A stretch of DNA of 64,000 nucleotides from NCBI RefSeq assembly GCF_000585375.1, contig NZ_KK073874.1:5538067-5602066 (forward strand), given 5' to 3'. This DNA is from Cryptosporangium arvum DSM 44712. GTDB lineage: Bacteria > Actinomycetota > Actinomycetes > Mycobacteriales > Cryptosporangiaceae. The first letter of the stretch is position 1. Each line of letters begins with the position of its first letter. Below, piece after piece: positions 3,928-33,675 of the stretch. A program made the translations under genes and the position numbers. The notes below the pieces were generated by a model, which did no database searches, had not been told where the DNA came from, and saw only the letters and a program-made list of their open reading frames with translations.

Positions 3928-5469
3928 GTGACTAATGAGCCACATGGTGCTCCGCGCGGTGAGGTGACCGAGAACGTGTCGACGGCACTGCCGAGTACGG
4001 CAATGGTGCGCGCTGCTCAGGACGGCGATCTCCAAGCCGTCCGGACGCTCGTCTCCGACCACCTGCCGTTGCTGTACACGCTCGTGCTCCGGGCCGCGGG
4101 CCCGTCCGTCGACGTCGACGACGTGATGGTCCGCACGGTGTCGCTCGTCGCCGCGGGCATGCCCGGCCTGGCCGAGCCGGACGCGTTCCGCCCGTGGCTG
4201 ATGGGCACCGCGCTGCGGTTCCTCTGGACGGCGGAGCAGACGGCCAACCGGGCCCGCCCGTGCGGGGCCGACTGGCCCCCGGTCGCCGCCAGCGACCCGT
4301 CCGACCAGCGCGAAGAGGCGAACAACGCGGTGCGGTGGCTCGCCCCCGACGACCGTGAACTGCTCTCGATGTGGTGGCTGGAGGCCTCCGGCGAGGTCAC
4401 CCGGGACGAGGTCGTCGCGGCCTGCGGGCTGACGCCCACGGTCGCGGAGAACCGGCTGCGCCAGATCGAGGCACGCTTCGAGGACGCCCGCACCGCGATC
4501 CGGACGCTCGGCGCGTCGCCGCCGTGCGCGCCGCTGACGAACCTGCTGCAGCACTGGGACCGCCGCCCGTCCGACCGCCAGCGCCGGCAGATCGCGCGGC
4601 ACGCCACCGACTGCCCGACCTGCTCCGGGCGGGCCGCCGACCTCATCCCGGCCGACCGGCTGCTGCGCGGAACACCGCTGATCGCGCTCCCGCACGCGCT
4701 GCGCGAGTCGTTGCTGGCCCGCTGCGAGCAGGCCCCCGACCCGGCCGACGGGTCGGGTTCGACGGCGATCGTGGAGCGTGTGCGCCGGACCGCCGCGAAC
4801 CCCTGCGTGGGGAACATGGCCCGGATCGTCGCGGTGACTATCGCGGTCGTCCTGCTGATCATCTCGCTGGCGACGTACGCCGACAGCCGGAAGTCACGGC
4901 CGGTGACGACCGGGGTGCGCAACAGCCCGTCGGCCTCCGCGGCCGCGTTACCGTCGGGCTCCGCGTCGGCCCGGCCCTCCACGATCGTCTCGTCGGCGCT
5001 CGGCACGCCCTCCCCCACCGGGGCCCGGACGGGTGAGCTGATCGGTCGCCGGGCCCTGCGGTCGGCCGCGACCCCCGACCGGTACGTCCAGGTCGTCAAC
5101 GACGTCGCGTTCGTGCTGCCGGTGACGCCGACCAGCCCGGTCGCGCTCCGCCAGAGTTCGACGTTCGAGCTGGTGACCGGCCTGGCCGACGCCGAGTGCC
5201 GGTCGTTCCGGGTGGCGTCGGGCCAGTACCTGCGTCACTTCCGCTTCCGGGTGCGGGTCGACCCGGACGACAAGTCCGCCCTGTTCCGCAAGGACACCAC
5301 GTTCTGCCCCCGCCCCGGTGCGACGCCGGGCTCGGTGTCGTTCCAGTCGATCAACTACCCCGACCAGTACCTGCACGTACGCGGGGACGAGCTGTGGATC
5401 GACAAGTCCGACGGCACCGCGGCGTTCCTGAAGACGTCGTCGTTCGACGTCGTCGGAGGCTGGGCCTAG
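3928..5469 (+). CDS. ECF-sigma-like protein fused to zinc finger, membrane helix and AbfB-like domain
   Basis: A 513-aa mosaic. Residues about 25-200 resemble ECF sigma regions 2 and 4 (AAQDGDLQAVRTLVSDHLP; a region-4-like block LAPDDRELLSMWWLEASGEV with VAENRLRQIEARFEDAR). Residues 225-232 are H-x3-C-x2-C, the anti-sigma zinc motif (HATDCPTC). Residues about 296-316 form one membrane helix (ARIVAVTIAVVLLIISLATY). A Ser/Pro/Ala linker follows. The last ~130 residues (RYVQVV, SGQYLRHFRFRVRVD, SFQSINYPDQYLHVRG, FLKTSSFDVVGG) look like an AbfB beta-trefoil carbohydrate-binding domain. A membrane-held sigma factor reading cell-wall sugar is a plausible inference. ECF groups with membrane and carbohydrate-binding extensions are known. 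Start codon is uncertain (GTG 3928; in-frame GTGs at 3964 and 3976). Confidence 0.8.
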   Translation: MTNEPHGAPRGEVTENVSTALPSTAMVRAAQDGDLQAVRTLVSDHLPLLYTLVLRAAGPSVDVDDVMVRTVSLVAAGMPGLAEPDAFRPWLMGTALRFLWTAEQTANRARPCGADWPPVAASDPSDQREEANNAVRWLAPDDRELLSMWWLEASGEVTRDEVVAACGLTPTVAENRLRQIEARFEDARTAIRTLGASPPCAPLTNLLQHWDRRPSDRQRRQIARHATDCPTCSGRAADLIPADRLLRGTPLIALPHALRESLLARCEQAPDPADGSGSTAIVERVRRTAANPCVGNMARIVAVTIAVVLLIISLATYADSRKSRPVTTGVRNSPSASAAALPSGSASARPSTIVSSALGTPSPTGARTGELIGRRALRSAATPDRYVQVVNDVAFVLPVTPTSPVALRQSSTFELVTGLADAECRSFRVASGQYLRHFRFRVRVDPDDKSALFRKDTTFCPRPGATPGSVSFQSINYPDQYLHVRGDELWIDKSDGTAAFLKTSSFDVVGGWA

Positions 5470-8045: not shown

Positions 8046-9272
8046 CTACCAGGTCGCTTCGAGTACCAGCGGCCCGCGCACGTTCAACGACCTGCGCACG
8101 TCGACGTGCTGGTCCTCCACCAGGCGCAGACCGGGCAGCCGCTCGACCAGGGTCTGGAGCGCGACCCTCATCTGCAGCCGGGCCGACGCCGCGCCCACGC
8201 ACGTGTGGACGCCCGCTCCGAACGCGAAGTGGCGGCTCGGCTTGCGGGTCACGTCGAAGCGCTCAGGATCCGGGTAGCGCTCCTCGTCGCGGTTGGCCGA
8301 CGCGAAGAGCAGCATCACGTCCGCGCCGTCGGGGAGGTCGACGCCGCCGACCGTGGCCGGGCGGGTGGTGAGGCGGAACTGCGCCGGGATCGGAGGTTCG
8401 AAGCGCAGCGCCTCCTCCACCGCGTACGGCACCAGGTCGGGCTGCCGCTGCAACAACTCCCACTGGTCGGGGTGCGCGAGCAGCAGCGCGAGGGCGCTGC
8501 CGATGCCGTCGGCGGTGGTGATGTGCGCGGCCCCGAACGTGCTGGCGAACGTCGCCACCAGCTGGGCCTCGTCCTCGAACGACAGCGGCCCGTCCCCGGG
8601 GTAGAGCGCGGCGGCGACGTCGCTGATCAGGTCACCGGTCGGCTCGGCGTGCCGGGAGCGGGCGTACTCGGCCAGCCGGTGCTGGAACGCGACGACGTGG
8701 CGCGCGACCTCGACCTCCTCCGCTTCGGTCTGGTCGGGCGTCGCCAGCGCGAACAGCGACCGGCTGCCGACGTCGGCCAGGGCGACGTCGTCCGGCGCGA
8801 AGCCGAACAGGTCACCCGCGGTCTCGAGCGGCAGTGGAGCCGCGTAGCTCGAGATCAGGTCGACGGTGGAGCCGAACGAGTCGATGTGGGCCTCGGCGCG
8901 TTTGCGGATCGCGGGTTCGCTGCCCTTCACGCGGCCGGGGGTCGTCATGTGCTTGCTGTAGGGCACGCGCAGACGGCGGTGGGCCTCGCCGTCGGACGTG
9001 ACGTGGTCGGGGCGCTGCGGGTAACCGGTCATCAGGACCTCGATCGAGGCCGGATACGGCGACCGCAGCGGCCGCAGGCTGTTGACCGAGGAGAACCCCT
9101 CCGGGTCTTTGATGATCGCGTCGACGTCGGCGAACCGCGTGACGACCCAGGCGTCGAGGCGCGGGGCGAAGAAGATCGGCTCTTCGCGTCGCGCCCGGGC
9201 GTAGCTGGGATAGGGATCTGCGTAATCCGCCCCTAACGGATCGAAGCTCTCGGCGAGCTCGCTGACGGTCAA
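8046..9272 (-). CDS. Cytochrome P450
   Basis: Soluble bacterial P450 of 408 aa. The heme-ligand loop is FAFGAGVHTCVG with Cys358. The ExxR pair is Glu287/Arg290 in VEEALR, and PERF lies near 337. The I-helix reads TFGAAHITTAD, where most P450s have AGHETT: the acid of the acid-alcohol pair is Ile251 here, while both threonines remain. The start is taken as TTG at 9272, which has AGAGGAG 5 nt upstream and gives a normal P450 N-terminus (MTVSELAESFDPLGADYADP). In-frame codons further upstream add a Tyr/His-rich stretch unlike the family. The redox partner is not encoded nearby and the substrate is unknown. Confidence 0.92.
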   Translation of the reverse strand: MTVSELAESFDPLGADYADPYPSYARARREEPIFFAPRLDAWVVTRFADVDAIIKDPEGFSSVNSLRPLRSPYPASIEVLMTGYPQRPDHVTSDGEAHRRLRVPYSKHMTTPGRVKGSEPAIRKRAEAHIDSFGSTVDLISSYAAPLPLETAGDLFGFAPDDVALADVGSRSLFALATPDQTEAEEVEVARHVVAFQHRLAEYARSRHAEPTGDLISDVAAALYPGDGPLSFEDEAQLVATFASTFGAAHITTADGIGSALALLLAHPDQWELLQRQPDLVPYAVEEALRFEPPIPAQFRLTTRPATVGGVDLPDGADVMLLFASANRDEERYPDPERFDVTRKPSRHFAFGAGVHTCVGAASARLQMRVALQTLVERLPGLRLVEDQHVDVRRSLNVRGPLVLEATW

Positions 9273-26590: not shown

Positions 26591-27667
26591 ATGAGTAACC
26601 TGACCGAGCTCGGCTTCTACACGCTCGCCGGTCACACCCGCAGCCCGCGCGACGTGGTGCACGAGGTACCCGCGGCGGAGGCCCTCGGCCTCGGTGCCGG
26701 CTTCCTCTCCGAACGCTTCAACTTCAAGGAGGCGGGCACGATCGCCGGCGCGATGGGCGCGGTCTCGTCGACGCTCGGGCTCGCCACCGCGGCCACGAAC
26801 CACAACACGCGCCATCCCCTGCTGACGGCGTCCCTGGCGACGTCGATGCACACGCTGACCGGCGGCCGGTTCGCGCTCGGGCTGGGCCGCGGCATCGAGC
26901 TGCGCAGCCGGGCCATCGGGCTGTCCCCGGTGACCTCGGTGCAGCTCGAGGACTTCGCCGGCCTGATGCGCCGGCTGTGGAAGGGCGAGGCGATCTTCGG
27001 CCACGACGGCCCGGCCGGCTCCTACCCCTATCTGCACCAGGAGTCGTACTTCGACTTCGACATCCCGATCGTCCTGGTCGCGATCGGACCGCGGACGCTG
27101 GAGCTCGCGGGCCGCATCGCGGACGGCGTCGTGCTGCACACCTACTTCTCCGACCACGCGCTCTCGACGGCGCTCGACGCGATCGCCCGGGGCGCGAAGT
27201 CGGTGGGGCGCGACCCGGCGTCGATCCGGGTCTGGTCGGTGCTCGCGACGATCGGCGACCACCTCCCGGCCGACGCGCGTCTGAAGAAGACCGTCGGGCG
27301 GCTCGCCTCGTACCTGCAGGGATACGGCGACGTGCTGGTCGCGATCAACGACTGGGATCCCGCGGTGCTGACCCGGTTCCGGGCCGACCCGGTCGTCGGA
27401 AGCTTCCTCGGCGCGATCGACGACCGCGCGAGCACCGACCAGCTCGAACACATCGCGACGCTGCTCCCGTCCGAATGGCTGTCGGCGGCGGCGACCGGGT
27501 CGCCGGCCGAGTGCGCCGCCGAGGTCGCCCGCCAGTTCGGCCTCGGCGTGTCCGGGGTGATCCTGCACGGCGCGACGCCGGACGAGCTCGCGCCGGTGGT
27601 CTCGGCGTACCGGGCGGTCCGGCCGGCGTTACCGGAGTACCCGGCGAACCCGGGGTGGGTGGCGTGA
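26591..27667 (+). CDS. LLM-class F420-dependent oxidoreductase (TIGR03857-like)
   Basis: A 358-aa luciferase-fold enzyme. Visible: TELGFYTLAGHTRSPRDVVH, ATAATNHNTRHPLLTASLA, LTGGRFALGLGRGIELRSRA and FDIPIVLVAIGPRTLELAGR. This set (an opening with GHTxSPRDL) is typical of an actinobacterial LLM subfamily found in steroid and lipid catabolic regions. Its stop overlaps the phosphotransferase start by 4 nt (GTGA). The promoter carries the shared TGTATA element. Confidence 0.9.
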   Translation: MSNLTELGFYTLAGHTRSPRDVVHEVPAAEALGLGAGFLSERFNFKEAGTIAGAMGAVSSTLGLATAATNHNTRHPLLTASLATSMHTLTGGRFALGLGRGIELRSRAIGLSPVTSVQLEDFAGLMRRLWKGEAIFGHDGPAGSYPYLHQESYFDFDIPIVLVAIGPRTLELAGRIADGVVLHTYFSDHALSTALDAIARGAKSVGRDPASIRVWSVLATIGDHLPADARLKKTVGRLASYLQGYGDVLVAINDWDPAVLTRFRADPVVGSFLGAIDDRASTDQLEHIATLLPSEWLSAAATGSPAECAAEVARQFGLGVSGVILHGATPDELAPVVSAYRAVRPALPEYPANPGWVA

Positions 27668-28722
27668 CGCTCTCGTTGCCGGTCGAGCCGGATCCGTCGC
27701 TGATCGCCGACAGCGCGGACGCGTTGACCGCGTCCTGGCTGGGGCGCGTGCTGGACGTCCCCGTGAGCGCGGTGCGCGTGCAGCGGATCGGGACCGGGCA
27801 GATCGGGGCGAGCTACCGGGTGTGGCTCACCTCCTCCGGCGCACCGGCCTCGGTCGTGGTGAAGATGGGCACCGGCGCCGACCGGAGCATGACCAGCCAG
27901 GGCTACGCCTGGGAGGTCGGCTTCTACCTGCACCTGGCCGCCCGGGTGAACGCCCGGCTCCCCCGCTGCTGGTACGCCGCGATCAGCCCCGACCACACCC
28001 GGTTCACGCTGGTGCTGGAGGACTTGGCGCCGAGCACCCCGGGCGCCCAGGCCGACGGCTGCACGGCGGATCGGGCGCGCGACGCGGTCGTCAACCTGGC
28101 CGGCCTGCACGGCCCGTTCTGGAACAGCCCGCTGCTGGCCTCGGGCCTGGACTGGCTCGCCCCCGCCGACGCCGAAGGAGCAGCGTTCCTGGGCGCGCTG
28201 CACCGCGACGCGACCGAGGTGTTCGTGCACCGCTTCGGCGCCGAGCTCGCGTCGGACGACGCGTCGACGCTACGCGCGGCCGCCGCCCTCACCGAACGTT
28301 GGTTGCGCGACCACCAGACCCCGTTCTCGCTGGTGCACGGGGACTACCGACTCGACAACCTGATGTTCCACCCGACGTCGCCCGAGGTGGCGGCGCTCGA
28401 CTGGCAGACGGTGTCGGTGGGGCACCCGGGCCGGGACCTGGCGTACTTCGTGGCCCTGTCCCTCCCGGTCGAGGACCGCCGGGCCGCCGAGGACTCGCTG
28501 GTGGAGGCGTATCACACGGCGCTGGGCGTACCGGGGTATTCACTCGCGGACTGCCGGGAGGGATACCGGTCGGGCATGCTGCACGCGCCGGTGATCACGG
28601 TGCTGGGGTGCGTGTACGCGGCAGTGGAGCGGACGGCGGCGGCGGACGCGATGTTCTTGTCGATGACGGTTCGAGCGTGCCAGGCGATCCGTGACCACGG
28701 CACGTTGGAGTGTGTCTCGTGA
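27664..28722 (+). CDS. Aminoglycoside-phosphotransferase-fold kinase
   Basis: A 352-aa APH/choline-kinase fold protein. VVVKMGTG is the ATP-side Lys strand, LVHGDYRLDNLMFHP the catalytic loop (Asp in HGDYRLDN) and VAALDWQTVSVG the metal Asp. It is not necessarily an antibiotic-resistance gene: relatives in acyl-CoA catabolic clusters are thought to phosphorylate small metabolites. It is coupled to the LLM gene by GTGA overlap. The coding region stops directly before the repeat field. Confidence 0.88.
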   Translation: MTLSLPVEPDPSLIADSADALTASWLGRVLDVPVSAVRVQRIGTGQIGASYRVWLTSSGAPASVVVKMGTGADRSMTSQGYAWEVGFYLHLAARVNARLPRCWYAAISPDHTRFTLVLEDLAPSTPGAQADGCTADRARDAVVNLAGLHGPFWNSPLLASGLDWLAPADAEGAAFLGALHRDATEVFVHRFGAELASDDASTLRAAAALTERWLRDHQTPFSLVHGDYRLDNLMFHPTSPEVAALDWQTVSVGHPGRDLAYFVALSLPVEDRRAAEDSLVEAYHTALGVPGYSLADCREGYRSGMLHAPVITVLGCVYAAVERTAAADAMFLSMTVRACQAIRDHGTLECVS

Positions 28723-29175
28723 GCAGGCGCCGCGGTGGCGGGTGACCTGAGCGGGTGGGGTGGCCCGGTGGTCTTGTCGAGGCGTCTCCGAGCGGAGGTG
28801 GTGGCCGGGTCGGCCGGTTCCCTGCGCCGCAGCCCTAACCGGCCGGTGGTGTCCGGGTTCGTTCCTGTGGAGTTCCTGCCTGCTGGATCTGTTCGTGCCG
28901 CCCGCATCGCTGCCGGGCTGGTAGTGGCGGTGCCGTAGTTGCTGTGCGCGCGTCGGGCTCATTCGCGGAGGGGGCGGGGTGTGGCCGGGCTCGTTCCGGC
29001 TGCGCTGGAAGCGGCCTGCACCCGGTGATGGCGGACGCGGCCGGGGTTACCAGCGCCGGGCTACCGCAGCCGGTTTCCCGAGACGGCTCGGTGCGACCAC
29101 GGGACGCGACTCGACCCGGCGCGGCTCAGCCCCGCGGTTCCGGTTGGGCTTGGCGTGCGGCTGGGTACGGCGCAG

Positions 29176-29550
29176 CGCCGTTCGGCGCGGGGCAGCGCGG
29201 CGCCGTTCGGCGCGGGGCAGCGCGGCGCCGTTCGGCGCGGGGCAGCGCGGCGCCGTTCGGCGCGGGGCAGCGCGGCGCCGTTCGGCGCGGGGCAGCGCGG
29301 CGCCGTTCGGCGCGGGGCAGCGCGGCGCCGTTCGGCGCGGGGCAGCGCAGCGCCGTTCAGCGCGGGGCAGCGCAGCGCCGTTCAGCGCGGGGCAGCGCAG
29401 CGCCGTTCAGCGCGGGGCAGCACAGCGCCGTTCAGCGCGGGGCAGCACAGCGCCGTTCAGCGCGGGGCAGCACAGCGCCGTTCAGCGCGGGGCAGCACAG
29501 CGCCGTTCAGCGCGGGGCAGCGCAGCGCCGCTCGGCGCGGGGCGGGACCG
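29176..29550. repeat. 25-bp tandem repeat, 15 copies
   Basis: Fifteen head-to-tail units start at 29176 and every 25 bp after it. Each is five pentamers: CGCCG, TTCGG, CGCGG, GGCAG, CGCGG. Variants are grouped in blocks. Units 1-6 are identical and unit 7 ends CGCAG. Units 8-9 have TTCAG and CGCAG, 10-13 have CACAG in the last pentamer, 14 returns to CGCAG and 15 is degenerate (CGCCGCTCGG). There are no unique spacers, so it is not CRISPR. Confidence 0.95.
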
Positions 29551-30257
29551 TTCGGCGCGGCGCGGGGCGGGGCCGTTCGGCGCGGGGCGGGGCGGGGCAG
29601 CTAGGCGCGGGGCGGCGCAGCTCGGAACGGCCTAGGTCTTGGCCTTGCTCGGCTTGGCGCGAGGCCCGGAGCGGCGCGCCCCAGCTCCACCGGACCGGTA
29701 TGGTCGGGACATCGGTGCGGCAGGGCTCGATGCGGCACGACACGGCTCAACGCGGCCGGGCTCGGTATGACACGGCCCAGGTCGACCCGGCACGGTTCGT
29801 CGCCGCTCGGTCCGGTTCGGCGCGCTTGGCCCCGCGCGGTGCGGCACGGGCCGGGCTGGCCCGCCGCGGTACGGCGCGGCCTCGCCCGCCGCGGTACGGG
29901 GCGGCGCGGCGCGGCGCGGGCAATTTTCGGCCCACCCAGCCCGACTGTGACCAGCCCTGCTCGGTGCGGCCAGCACAGTGCGGGTGGACTCGGTGCGCGT
30001 GGCCGGCTTCTGGCCGAGTTCTATGCGGCGCGACCTGGCGCGACGCAGCTCAGCCGGGCTCGGCTCGGTGCAGTGCGCGCAGTTCGATACGACCACGGCG
30101 CGACACGGCACACCCGACTCGGCTCGGTTGACGCCGAGTTCGGCGCAGCCCGGCGCAGCCCGGCGCGGCACGTTCAGCGCGGTGCGGCACGGCGCGGCCC
30201 GGGGACAGCCCGGCACGGCCTGGCCTGGCACGGGCGCGGCGCGGCGCGGCGCGGCGC

Positions 30258-30346
30258 GCATAGCACCGCGCGCCTAACTCGGCGCGGCATGGCGCGGCAC
30301 GGCACGGCGCGGCATGCATGGCACCGCGCGCCTAACTCGGCGCGGC
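30258..30346. repeat. Two ~31-bp direct repeats 58 bp apart
   Basis: Copies at 30258-30288 and 30316-30346 share the core CCGCGCGCCTAACTCGG and differ by a single A/G near the start. The interval is GC-rich pentamer sequence. This is a recent local duplication. Confidence 0.85.
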
Positions 30347-30371
30347 TCAGTGCGGTCGGCCCGGCTCGGCC

Positions 30372-30431
30372 CGGTGCGAGGGAGCACGGTGCGAGGGAGC
30401 ACGGTGCGAGGGAGCACGGTGCGAGGGAGCC
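30372..30431. repeat. 15-bp tandem repeat, four copies
   Basis: CGGTGCGAGGGAGCA repeats at 30372, 30387 and 30402; a fourth copy at 30417 differs only in its last base. It closes the repeat field. The unit is three pentamers long. Confidence 0.92.
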
Positions 30432-30517
30432 GACTCTCGCCGGCTCATGGGATGGGGAGTGGTGCCGGGTTCGGCGTCGGGGACGTTCGGGGCGGTGTCG
30501 CCTGGGCCTTGGGCCCG

Positions 30518-31387
30518 TCAGGCCGGGGGTGGGAGGGGCTCGGTGGGGGTGGTCAGGCGCTCGCTGACGGCGATCAGGTCGGGGTAGCGGCGGGTTCGGG
30601 CGCCGCCGTCGATGCTGTGGACGCTGCCGGTGATGAAGCCGGCTTCGTCGGAGGCCAGGAACAGGATCAGCGCGGCGATCTCCTCCGGGGCGGCGAAGCG
30701 GCCGAGGGGCGTGTTCTCGACGTACTCTTCGACCGCGCCCGGTAGGGCCCAGAGCGGTTCGGTGGCCGGGGTGCGGACGAGGCCGGGGGCGACCGCGTTG
30801 ACCCGGATGCCGGCCGGGCCGAGTTCGAGCGCGGCGACCTCGGTCAGCGCGACCACCCCGGCCTTCGCCGCGCAGTAGGCCGCCATCCCGCGGCCGGGCT
30901 GGATCGCATTCAAGCTCGCCAACGCCACGATGGCCCCACCCGCTCGGAGCACGCGCCCCGCGTGCTTCACGGTGTGGAAAACCCCGTGCAAGGACAGGTC
31001 GACGACGCGGCGCCACTCGGTGGCGTCCAGTTCGGTGATCTCGCCGATCGTGGCGCCGCCGGCGTTCGCGACCGCGATGTCGAGCCCGCCGAAGTGCTCG
31101 GTCGCGGACGACACCAGCGCGTGGACGTCGTCCTCGACGGTGACGTCGGTGTGCCGGGCGGCGAAGCTCTCGCCGAGTTCGGCGCTCAGCGCGGCGAGGC
31201 CGGCGTCGTCGATGTCACCGCCCACCACGTGCGCGCCCTCGGCGACGAAGCGACGGGCCACGGCGGCACCGATGCCGTTCGCGGCGCCGGTGACCACTGC
31301 TGTCTTCCCGGTCAGCCGGGCGTTCGAGTCCACCATGGAGGCAGGGTGGCAGGGCGGACGCGCCGAATCAACGGAATCGTCGCTCAT
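30518..31387 (-). CDS. Short-chain dehydrogenase/reductase
   Basis: A classical SDR with cofactor motif KTAVVTGAANGIGAAVARRF, the acidic DID after the second strand (NAD preference), NAG in IAVANAGG, the catalytic Ser in ASLNAIQPG and YCAAK (YxxxK). The C-terminus has FLASDEAGFITGSVHSIDGG, typical of 3-oxoacyl or hydroxysteroid dehydrogenase-like members. ATG 31387 overlaps the permease stop as ATGA, indicating coupling, and gives 289 aa. ATG 31336 would give the usual short N-terminus (272 aa) but lacks a ribosome site. The substrate is unknown. Confidence 0.9.
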   Translation of the reverse strand: MSDDSVDSARPPCHPASMVDSNARLTGKTAVVTGAANGIGAAVARRFVAEGAHVVGGDIDDAGLAALSAELGESFAARHTDVTVEDDVHALVSSATEHFGGLDIAVANAGGATIGEITELDATEWRRVVDLSLHGVFHTVKHAGRVLRAGGAIVALASLNAIQPGRGMAAYCAAKAGVVALTEVAALELGPAGIRVNAVAPGLVRTPATEPLWALPGAVEEYVENTPLGRFAAPEEIAALILFLASDEAGFITGSVHSIDGGARTRRYPDLIAVSERLTTPTEPLPPPA

Positions 31388-33675
31388 GGTGCGGGCGGTT
31401 GGTGCTGCGAGGTCCACCAGTCGTACTCGGGTGCGGGTCGCTGGGCCGGGATGTCCGGTCGCTGCGCTCGGGTCGCCGGATGCTGCTGGGGCGCGTCTTC
31501 CGGAACGATCTCCGGCTGCCCCGGCCACGGATGGTTCCCGCCGTCGGCACGCACCGGCCCCGCCAACCGCCGCGCCCCGGAACCAACCGCCCCGCCGCGC
31601 GCCCCGGAACCAACCGTCCCTGCCCCCGGTCCAGGCCCCCCGACCCACGGCCCGGAATCGGGCCCCCCGACCCAAGGTCCGGGCCCGACCACCCCGGCCG
31701 CCCCAGCGGCCCCAGCGGCCCCAGCGGCCCCAGCGGCCCCAGCCGCACCGGTCTCCCCGACCGCCCCGACCGCCCCGACCCAAGGCTCCACGACGGGCGC
31801 CCTGTCCGGCCGATGCCACACCCCAGGCACCACCTCACCCGGCGGCACCGCGTACGGCGAACCCCCCGGCGTCTCGAAGCCCTCAAACCCCCCGGAACGA
31901 ACCCCCGGCGGCGGCGCGGACGGCGAGCCCACCCGCCCTCCAACAACCGCATCCCCCGCCATCAAAGGCCCACCCACCGCCTGCGCATACCCAGGAGCAA
32001 CCCGCGCCCGCTCGTCCTCCCCCAACTGCCCCAAATCCCCCACCCGAGAATCACCCGGAACGAACCCCGCCGAAGCCGGATGCGTCGCCCGGTCCCGGTC
32101 CGAAACCCCGCCCCGATCCGAAACCCCGCCCGACACCGACACCCCGCCCGGCACCGGAACCCCCTCCGACACCGGAACCCCGCCCGACACCGGGACCGCG
32201 ATCGTCGGCGGCGCCGTCGGAGCCGCCATCGGCCTCACGACCGGAGCGTCCATCCCCGAGCGTCCGATCATCGCGTACACCGACGGCCGCGTCTCACGCA
32301 GCACCAGCGCCCCGATCACCCCGAACCCGAACGGCACGAACACCAGCGCGGCCACCGGCCACGTCCCGCCGGACCCCTCCGGGTTCAGCGCGGGCACGTG
32401 GGTGAGCCCGTACGCCACGATCAAACCCAGCGTCAGCGCGGAGAACGCGGCCGCGACGACCTGCCCCTCCCAGCCGAAGAACCCCGTCTCGTCGGCCTCG
32501 CCGCGCAGGAACCACACCGTGGCCGACAGCGACGCGAGCCCCAGCATCCCGATCACCCCGAGCGTGGACCCGATCAGCACCCAGGGCTCGAGCGCGCCGG
32601 TCGTGCGGTCGCCGAGGAACAGCGCCACGCAGCCGCCGACGGCCGGGTGCGCGAAGTGGAGCAGCAGCGGGCGCCTGCCCTTGACGTCGGGTTCGATCAG
32701 GGCCGGCGGCAGCACCCCGTCGCGCGCCAGCCCGGCCAGCTGACGCACGAGCGCGCCCTGGAGCGCGGCCGTCGCGCCGAACACCCCGGTCAGCAGCACG
32801 GCCATCAGGACGTTGGTCACCAGCACCGCGTCCTGCGGCCCGACGACCTGCGCCACCAGCAGCGGGAACAGCGCCGGGCCGGCCTGCTGGGCCGTCGCGG
32901 CCGCGTTGACCGGCCCGACGAGCACGCTGATCGCCACCGCACCGGCGACGGTGACCGCGGACGTGATCGCGTACGACAGGTACGTGGCCCGCGGCAACGA
33001 CCGGCCCGGGTCCTTCAGCTCCGCGGTGTAGTTGGCCGCCGTCTCGGTCCCGGTCGACGCCATCAGCGCGAACACCACCGCCACGCCGAACGTGCCGGTG
33101 AGCAGGCCGCCGGGTTCCAGGCTCTGGTACGACGCCATCCCACCGGCGGGCGAGCGGAACGCCGCGACGAGCGTCACGACGACGGTCACCAGCTGCAGCA
33201 CCAGGATCACCGCGAAGATCGGCAGGACCTGACGGGCCCGGAACCGGCTCAGGACCGCCCCCGCGGTCACGCACAGCACGATCCCCACCCAGAGCGGCAC
33301 GCCGTACCCGAAGACGCTCTGCGTCAACGCTTTGAGGACGCCGGCGAAGAAGCCGTACATCCCGGCGACCATGCCGATGTAGACGACGAGCAGCGCGGCC
33401 GCCGCGCCCACGCCGACCGGCCGGCCGAGGCCGTGCGCCACCTGGACGTACAGGCCGCCCGGATGGCGCAGCCGCTTGGCCAGACCGCTGTAACCGAAGA
33501 CGAACCCCAGCAGGACGACGCCGGAGAACGCGAAGACCAGCGGCGTCGCCTCGACCTGCCCGACGCGGTAGGTCTCCGGCACCGCGCCCCACAGCAGGGT
33601 CAGCGGCGTGTGGGTGACGAGCAGGAAGATCAGCAGATGACCGGTGCGCAGACGTCTGGAGTCGGTCGAGCCCAT
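31384..33675 (-). CDS. APC-type permease with ~285-residue low-complexity tail
   Basis: A 763-aa protein. Residues about 10-470 form a 12-helix amino acid permease (LLIFLLVTHTPLTLLWGAVP, VFALMASTGTETAANYTAEL, ELKDPGRSLPRATYLSYAIT) of the glutamate/GABA-antiporter-like group. From about residue 478 it changes to a disordered Pro/Gly/Val/Ala tail. The tail has VPVSGG-like hexapeptides, a GAAGAAGAAG collagen-like run, PGPWVGGPDSGPWVGGPGPG and a Gln/Pro-rich end. ATG 33675 has GGAAGG 6 nt upstream; GTG 33699 is less likely. The tail is probably cytoplasmic and of unknown role. The stop overlaps the SDR start. Confidence 0.88.
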   Translation of the reverse strand: MGSTDSRRLRTGHLLIFLLVTHTPLTLLWGAVPETYRVGQVEATPLVFAFSGVVLLGFVFGYSGLAKRLRHPGGLYVQVAHGLGRPVGVGAAAALLVVYIGMVAGMYGFFAGVLKALTQSVFGYGVPLWVGIVLCVTAGAVLSRFRARQVLPIFAVILVLQLVTVVVTLVAAFRSPAGGMASYQSLEPGGLLTGTFGVAVVFALMASTGTETAANYTAELKDPGRSLPRATYLSYAITSAVTVAGAVAISVLVGPVNAAATAQQAGPALFPLLVAQVVGPQDAVLVTNVLMAVLLTGVFGATAALQGALVRQLAGLARDGVLPPALIEPDVKGRRPLLLHFAHPAVGGCVALFLGDRTTGALEPWVLIGSTLGVIGMLGLASLSATVWFLRGEADETGFFGWEGQVVAAAFSALTLGLIVAYGLTHVPALNPEGSGGTWPVAALVFVPFGFGVIGALVLRETRPSVYAMIGRSGMDAPVVRPMAAPTAPPTIAVPVSGGVPVSEGVPVPGGVSVSGGVSDRGGVSDRDRATHPASAGFVPGDSRVGDLGQLGEDERARVAPGYAQAVGGPLMAGDAVVGGRVGSPSAPPPGVRSGGFEGFETPGGSPYAVPPGEVVPGVWHRPDRAPVVEPWVGAVGAVGETGAAGAAGAAGAAGAAGAAGVVGPGPWVGGPDSGPWVGGPGPGAGTVGSGARGGAVGSGARRLAGPVRADGGNHPWPGQPEIVPEDAPQQHPATRAQRPDIPAQRPAPEYDWWTSQHQPPAP
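31701..31740. repeat. 9-bp in-frame repeat in permease tail
   Basis: CCCCAGCGG repeats four times plus a partial copy, coding Gly-Ala-Ala on the minus strand. A related 9-bp run (CCCCGACCG, three copies, the last imperfect) lies at about 31754-31785. Confidence 0.85.
32100..32205. repeat. 18-bp degenerate repeats in permease tail
   Basis: About five degenerate units built from ACACC and CCCGCCCG words encode the hexapeptides VPVSGG, VPVSEG, VPVPGG, VSVSGG and VSDRGG. The 18-nt period keeps the reading frame. Confidence 0.75.

Follow-up and report, generated by a model that had tools for sequence, protein, structure and literature searches.

Why should a gap between two genes carry DNA with a 5-bp rhythm over more than a kilobase, and is that rhythm a mark of function or of repeat growth? 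We met this question in a window of 64,000 nucleotides (the whole stretch analyzed, whose numbering is used below) from Cryptosporangium arvum DSM 44712, here genome G000. The rhythmic DNA lies in a convergent intergenic gap of 1,795 bp (28723..30517), delimited by gene calls, codon scores, and Pfam matches on its flanks. To the left is a gene for an APH-type phosphotransferase (27655..28722, + strand; PF01636, 62.3 bits; codon score +0.32 per codon), and to the right is one for a short-chain dehydrogenase/reductase (SDR; 30518..31336, - strand; PF13561, 227.7 bits; codon score +0.39 per codon). Within the gap, a crude gene caller called no genes. A scan of contigs from sequenced genomes returned 11 relatives of the phosphotransferase, the best being from Trujillonella endophytica (55%), and a comparison with plasmids gave no match. 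Further to the right, 9/18/27-bp repeats (31684-31777) and 18-bp repeats (32100-32192) lie in the tail of an amino-acid permease ORF (31384-33675, - strand).

Was the rhythm real? Over 29085-30370, the interval assigned to it by the first-pass annotation, autocorrelation gave identities of 0.543, 0.533, 0.510, and 0.559 at lags 5, 10, 15, and 25. Lags not divisible by 5, followed up to 60, stayed at 0.25 to 0.35 (lag 4, 0.257; lag 6, 0.249); the lag-5 identity of the 64-kb window overall was 0.299. Fourier power at period 5 over the same interval was 3.09, a value reached by none of 500 first-order Markov shuffles (mean, 0.57; maximum, 2.42). Power was 17.75 at 29170-29621 and 2.96 at 29622-30370 (0 of 500 shuffles as high in each case), and 30141-30370 taken alone gave 2.45 (1 of 500 as high). 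The stretch 29085-29169 was not periodic by itself (power 0.45; 318 of 500 shuffles as high). The pentamer region was the only part of the window to pass the autocorrelation thresholds used, and the gap's period-5 score of 0.175 exceeded those of all 63 gaps longer than 300 bp in 800 kb sampled at even spacing from the same genome (mean, 0.004; standard deviation, 0.018; maximum, 0.070). We conclude that the 5-bp period at 29.15 to 30.43 kb is real and strong, as had been proposed. The proposed edges fared less well: the period becomes coherent near 29150 rather than at 29085, and a 15-bp array carries it on to 30430 rather than 30370.

The repeated word also needed revision. It had been read as NNCGG, with TGCGG, CAGGG, CTCGA, TGCGG, CACGA, and CACGG, which we placed at 29716-29745, as examples. 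Its CGG core held, but the consensus is NCGGC with N nearly free. The whole region comprises some 250 five-letter words, and exact NCGGC accounts for 68 of 253. In the degenerate part, a phase model (132 words) gave consensus shares of 0.30 (G) at N and 0.78, 0.73, 0.81, and 0.72 at the C, G, G, and C that follow; a de novo fit with no preset motif gave CGGC plus one mixed base.

Power, the phase model, and TRF divided the region, read on the + strand, into successive parts. A weak left edge (29085..29169) has a few NCGGC-like words but no single-phase periodicity by power and phase model. It is followed by a 25-bp (5 x 5) tandem array (29170..29621) of 18.3 copies with the consensus GCGCAGCGCCGTTCGGCGCGGGGCA (TRF; 93% matches). 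The degenerate NCGGC pentamer satellite (29622..30371), defined by power and phase model, then runs for about 130 words with phase breaks throughout, and inside it lies a 58-bp tandem duplication (30233..30346) of 2 copies at 91% (TRF), with a 26-bp exact repeat at lag 58. Last comes a 15-bp (3 x 5) array of CGGTGCGAGGGAGCA (30372..30430; TRF, 3.9 copies, 100% matches). The 25- and 15-bp arrays had been said to keep the same phase. They do not: the CGG phase (mod 5) is 2 throughout the 25-bp array, which forms a single phase segment, and 1 in the 15-bp array, with many segments between them. The 751 bp from 29622 to 30372 fell into 23 such segments (18 to 27 depending on the switch penalty), that is, a break every 28 to 42 bp on average. 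Copies 1 to 7 of the 25-bp unit (29170-29344) carry the inverted repeat GCGCC-GTTC-GGCGC, which is broken in copies 8 to 14.

Could copying and drift have produced this pattern? We cut the 25-bp array every 25 bp and compared the first 15 copies, leaving out the last 3.3. Five columns varied, all by transitions, and shared variants sorted the copies into blocks: copy 1; copies 2 to 7, which are identical; copies 8 to 10; copies 11 to 14; and copy 15. Among 129 words outside the arrays we counted 127 departures from CGGC, of which 82 were transitions, under a model whose starting table favored transitions. Repeated 15-mers formed 39 pairs at 29622-30372 and 909 pairs at 29085-30440, against maxima of 2 and 11 in nulls with permuted pentamer order. 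Among the longest exact repeats listed, lags were multiples of 5 in five of seven for the degenerate part and in seven of eight for L190, a congener locus, but in none of eight for L090, a second locus of the same genome. In-register copying is therefore not general.

Nested copies, block variants, and repeated k-mers are traces left by local duplication on more than one scale and by later drift. The duplication history shows in the 25-bp array (copies 1 to 15) as variant blocks and in the degenerate part as repeated k-mers, not as likeness of neighboring words there. As in a satellite, the copies stand head to tail above chance and lie outside coding sequence. We consider it probable, and the best reading of the region, that this is a function-free satellite of a known kind, grown by local duplication and then drifted. 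Two observations set out below also speak for it: regions of like kind occur at other loci, and none lies next to the phosphotransferase orthologues of two congeners.

Such a satellite would have started from a short GC-rich NCGGC-like seed. Rounds of local duplication, most of them here by a multiple of 5 bp, would have lengthened it within the intergenic gap, unopposed by selection. Transitions and small indels would then have blurred it, so that the degenerate part would be older and the 25-, 58-, and 15-bp arrays would be the latest rounds of copying. The copying step itself may have been polymerase slippage or unequal exchange, perhaps eased because MutS was not found and NucS, if present, would be blind to indels. 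No function need be assumed for it. In profile searches MutS_V had no match in G000 and matched in 11 of 14 control genomes, and NucS-based repair is reported to be unable to correct indels (PMC8228993). We do not claim that hairpins of the NCGGC strand drove slippage, because the whole region, as DNA, folds no better than 20 shuffles. An 800-kb sample held multiple-of-5 tandem repeats as 13 of 47 repeats outside genes and 30 of 89 inside; outside genes, then, such periods are not generally enriched.

What kind of seed would suffice? We simulated growth from a single-word seed and from one mixed at N, with 45 runs of each. The single-word seed left an entropy of at most 1.6 bits at N, whereas the observed value is 1.98, with positions 1 to 4 staying at 73 to 83%; the mixed seed gave 1.10 to 1.99 bits. 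A single-word seed makes N as conserved as the other positions, and therefore either the seed was mixed at N or CGGC has been kept. At the two higher mutation rates, the mixed seed yielded medians of 77 and 50 repeated 15-mer pairs (39 observed). Its runs had 4.5 to 8.6 phase segments against the 23 observed, at a simulated indel rate that was guessed. Words next to each other in the region are scarcely more alike than expected (mean lag z, 0.13), a value at the lower extreme of the mixed-seed runs. Hence, the mixed seed accounts for N and, approximately, for the count of repeated 15-mers, with more serial memory on average and fewer breaks than observed. We do not ascribe the freedom of N to CpG decay, because positions 1 to 4 drift alike. 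The same data fit either a mixed seed or weak selection and cannot separate the two. The free N and the recurring word are not fully explained by an ordinary repeat, and the recurrence of the word and the predominance of period 5, which neutral slippage alone does not predict, count against the satellite. So do the 12- and 15-mers that several pairs of loci have in common beyond what permuted word order yields.

Related DNA has been described. Many prokaryotic satellites have been described as akin to microsatellites altered by local mutation (Subirana and Messeguer 2019, PMC6749651). They resemble the window region in being short-unit tandem DNA that is partly intergenic; some of the abundant bacterial families named in that paper derive from hexamers or heptamers, and those of Burkholderia derive from CG-rich units of 6 to 8 nt. 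The window region differs from these satellites in its 5-bp unit with one almost free position, its blurring over more than 1 kb, and its repeated phase breaks. According to a second source, tandem units of 4 to 11 bp are normally or weakly over-represented in prokaryotes, and units of at least 4 bp are generally not suppressed; among the explanations it puts forward is that larger loops are poorly repaired (PMC4060949). MutS is undetected in G000, so loop size need not matter there in the way proposed for the repeats of that source. Among the literature matches listed, none described arrays of this kind in its title or at the start of its abstract.

Was this region alone of its kind? The first-pass annotation had suggested looking for the pentamers elsewhere in the genome and in relatives, and they turned up in both: at four more loci of G000, in a congener, and in two other families. 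The G000 loci come from pattern matches plus a sample, which cover the genome in part. The additional non-coding pentamer regions lie near 4.461 Mb (L090), 6.822 Mb (L093), and 9.020 Mb (L203), all found by pattern search or sampling, and near 4.945 Mb (L168), which came from the 800-kb sample and has a 21-bp unit. That sample held eight period-5 patches, five in called genes and three outside; of the latter, L158 and L182 read as 15-bp repeats of coding sequence or missed genes, and L168 is truly non-coding. Of 19 stretches around further pattern matches, five had a patch (L203, L204, L212, L202, and L220). We set aside L204, whose patch is in a called gene, and L212, which on reading is probably coding; L202 and L220 were left outside the set of non-coding regions counted. 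All five G000 regions run mainly as CGGC/CGGG on the + strand and lie at or beyond 4.46 Mb of the 9.2-Mb record, which may be chance.

In the congener G001, non-coding pentamer regions occur at L187, L190, L191, and L225, and other families of the order have pentamer regions in G017 and G055 (L223 and L226). Thirteen of 15 stretches from relatives had a period-5 patch, some of them in called genes. We fitted 11 hand-picked loci de novo (the window, L090, L093, L168, L203, L187, L190, L191, L223, L225, and L226). The consensus was NCGGC with mixed N in four (the window, L090, L187, and L223); L203 and L191 came close to it, and the remaining fitted loci differ, L190 being YCGSG. Aligned as DNA, the window region had matches at an E value of 0.001 or less in 43 of 61 genomes, its own included. 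The best were in G030 (E = 1.8e-27) and G017 (E = 9.8e-25), above L090 of its own genome (E = 1e-15, 65%). Better alignment across families than within the genome is expected of low-complexity likeness, which is how we read these sequences, rather than of descent. Seven-unit CGG patterns with periods of 5, 7, and 4 occurred at 2170, 1330, and 668 places in the 61 genomes and at 140, 9, and 12 places in G000, counts in which places overlap and coding repeats are included. By genome, period 5 led period 7 in 35, trailed it in 17, and tied with it in 9. Runs of five CGGCN units with no more than one mismatch were present in 24 of 119 genomes drawn from across the phylum, G000 among them. The congener G003 carries a perfect 14-bp tandem array of CGGATGACGGTCCG spanning at least 440 bp (G003:C17:570052-570495).

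Perhaps, then, the array is selected? With CGGC recurring at 5-bp intervals and the fifth base free, the region would make a dense candidate site for a DNA- or RNA-binding protein, and its role might be in the nucleoid, in insulating the converging genes, or in serving a TRAP-like RNA-binding ring that reads 5-nt units. The RNA targets of TRAP are NAG repeats about every 5 nt, with about 11 units. Their three-base core and 5-nt spacing suggest a parallel with the window region, although the latter has about 250 units with phase breaks and no protein known. We hold this reading to be unlikely. It agrees with the near freedom of N beside four positions conserved at 72 to 81%, with the near absence of serial memory between words, and with the de novo return of NCGGC in three genomes and two families. 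Four of the five G000 regions, moreover, are in convergent gaps; we do not claim a preference from this, since 6 of 14 sampled gaps of at least 1 kb are convergent, which leaves 4 of 5 short of significance (binomial, about 0.11). Against selection stand the breaks of phase outside the 25-bp array and the other words at other loci, as in L190.

The exact spacing argues the same way. The first-pass annotation had suggested that a half-helical-turn spacing could array a DNA-binding protein or act as a barrier to transcription or replication, a functional reading that found no support. The spectral peak fell at 5.00 (power 4.47), with 0.88 at 5.25 and 0.34 at 10.5. With a period of 5.00 and about 10.5 bp per turn, sites therefore drift round the helix. 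Given this peak and the 18 to 27 phase segments in 751 bp, we rejected a helically phased protein array as unlikely.

Nor is the pattern conserved next to orthologues of the genes on either side. Congeners were represented by one genome per species, and those searched lack the locus. The phosphotransferase orthologues of G003 (75%) and G002 (73%) have the next gene starting at or within 4 bp of the gene end (L131 and L132); the gap itself is therefore missing there, and no period-5 patch lies beside either orthologue. G001 had weak phosphotransferase matches (best E = 5.9e-6), and near the best SDR match of G003 (69%) there was no patch within stretch L135. The contig of G002 that bears its best SDR match (53%) also has a phosphotransferase paralogue; the two face each other with three called genes between them, and the sole patch of L134 (about 8151-8400, G002:C7) is an in-gene 15-bp repeat between the paralogue's two matched halves. 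We think it unlikely that this actinobacterial order has a recurrent selected non-coding element, with CGGC every 5 bp at unrelated intergenic sites and a putative phase-tolerant reader of a 4-bp core. If it did, one would recognize it by a near-random N, the lack of word memory, and the return of one word in G000, G001, and G017.

We find it improbable to a similar degree that the region serves as a structured RNA or as a stop for transcription arriving from both converging genes. The convergent position of the gap would suit it, as would the folding of the 25-bp array: as RNA compared with 100 shuffles, the array has a strong folding advantage on the + strand (z = -6.24) and a modest one on the - strand (z = -2.63), and its first seven copies hold the inverted repeat described above. 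A G-to-A change, however, breaks that stem in 7 of the 15 copies compared, and the non-array part, folded as DNA, does no better than 20 shuffles (z = +0.58 and +1.86). Terminator-like sites, defined as a GC-rich stem followed by a T run, numbered zero in the region (shuffle mean, 0.8), and all four Rfam matches were below gathering scores. There were no promoter matches in the region, and canonical G-quadruplexes (four runs of at least three G, loops of 1 to 7) were absent from both strands (+ strand shuffle mean, 3.1).

Much less credible is a family of mobile or transposed repeats that spread from locus to locus. Several similar regions do occur in one genome, L090 and the window region align at 65% (E = 1e-15), and some pairs of loci share 12- or 15-mers above a null of permuted word order (L090 and L203 share 28 words at k = 12, against at most 12). 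At k = 18, however, any two loci share only zero to three words, and the window region finds better alignments in G030, G017, and G047 (E down to 1.8e-27), all of other families, than in the remaining regions of its own genome. The higher-order units differ as well: 25/58/15 bp in the window, lags of 79/29/58 in L090, 14/15 in L203, and 21 bp in L168.

Weakest of all, and close to dismissed, is an Ala/Arg/Gly-rich protein repeat read in a 15-bp, five-codon period, for which one can cite long open frames on both strands and two overlapping ORFs that match the HC2 histone-like family below its cut-off of 40 bits (30.4 and 31.5), against codon usage unlike that of genes, open length as in shuffles, weak period-3 power (0.58 over the pentamer region, 0.03 in the 25-bp array), and phase breaks that shift the reading frame. 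Codon scores were negative in all six ORF stretches tested within the gap (-0.15 to -0.35 per codon) and positive in the flanking genes, which, with the gene calls, bears out the earlier view that the region is non-coding. The arguments given for that view were less sound. That both strands stay open for long is uninformative: the longest stop-free run in the region is 430 codons, the shuffle average is 376, and 27% of shuffles match it (P = 0.27). Nor does a period of 5 preclude protein because 5 is not a multiple of 3, since a 15-bp repeat of five codons allows it. In G000, L091 (about 4960-5080) and L092 (about 4840-4950) are in-gene 15-bp repeats that mimic a 5-bp period; such repeats in called genes trip the period-5 detector, and a 5-bp period is therefore compatible with coding.

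Should selection prove to lie behind the free N and the word's recurrence, the region would represent a type of dense binding array for which our searches turned up no description. Read as a satellite grown by duplication and blurred by drift, it shows how far a simple satellite can probably grow and blur in a GC-rich genome where MutS was not found. It is also a warning that, in such DNA, long open frames on two strands together with a strong non-triplet period are no sign of function.
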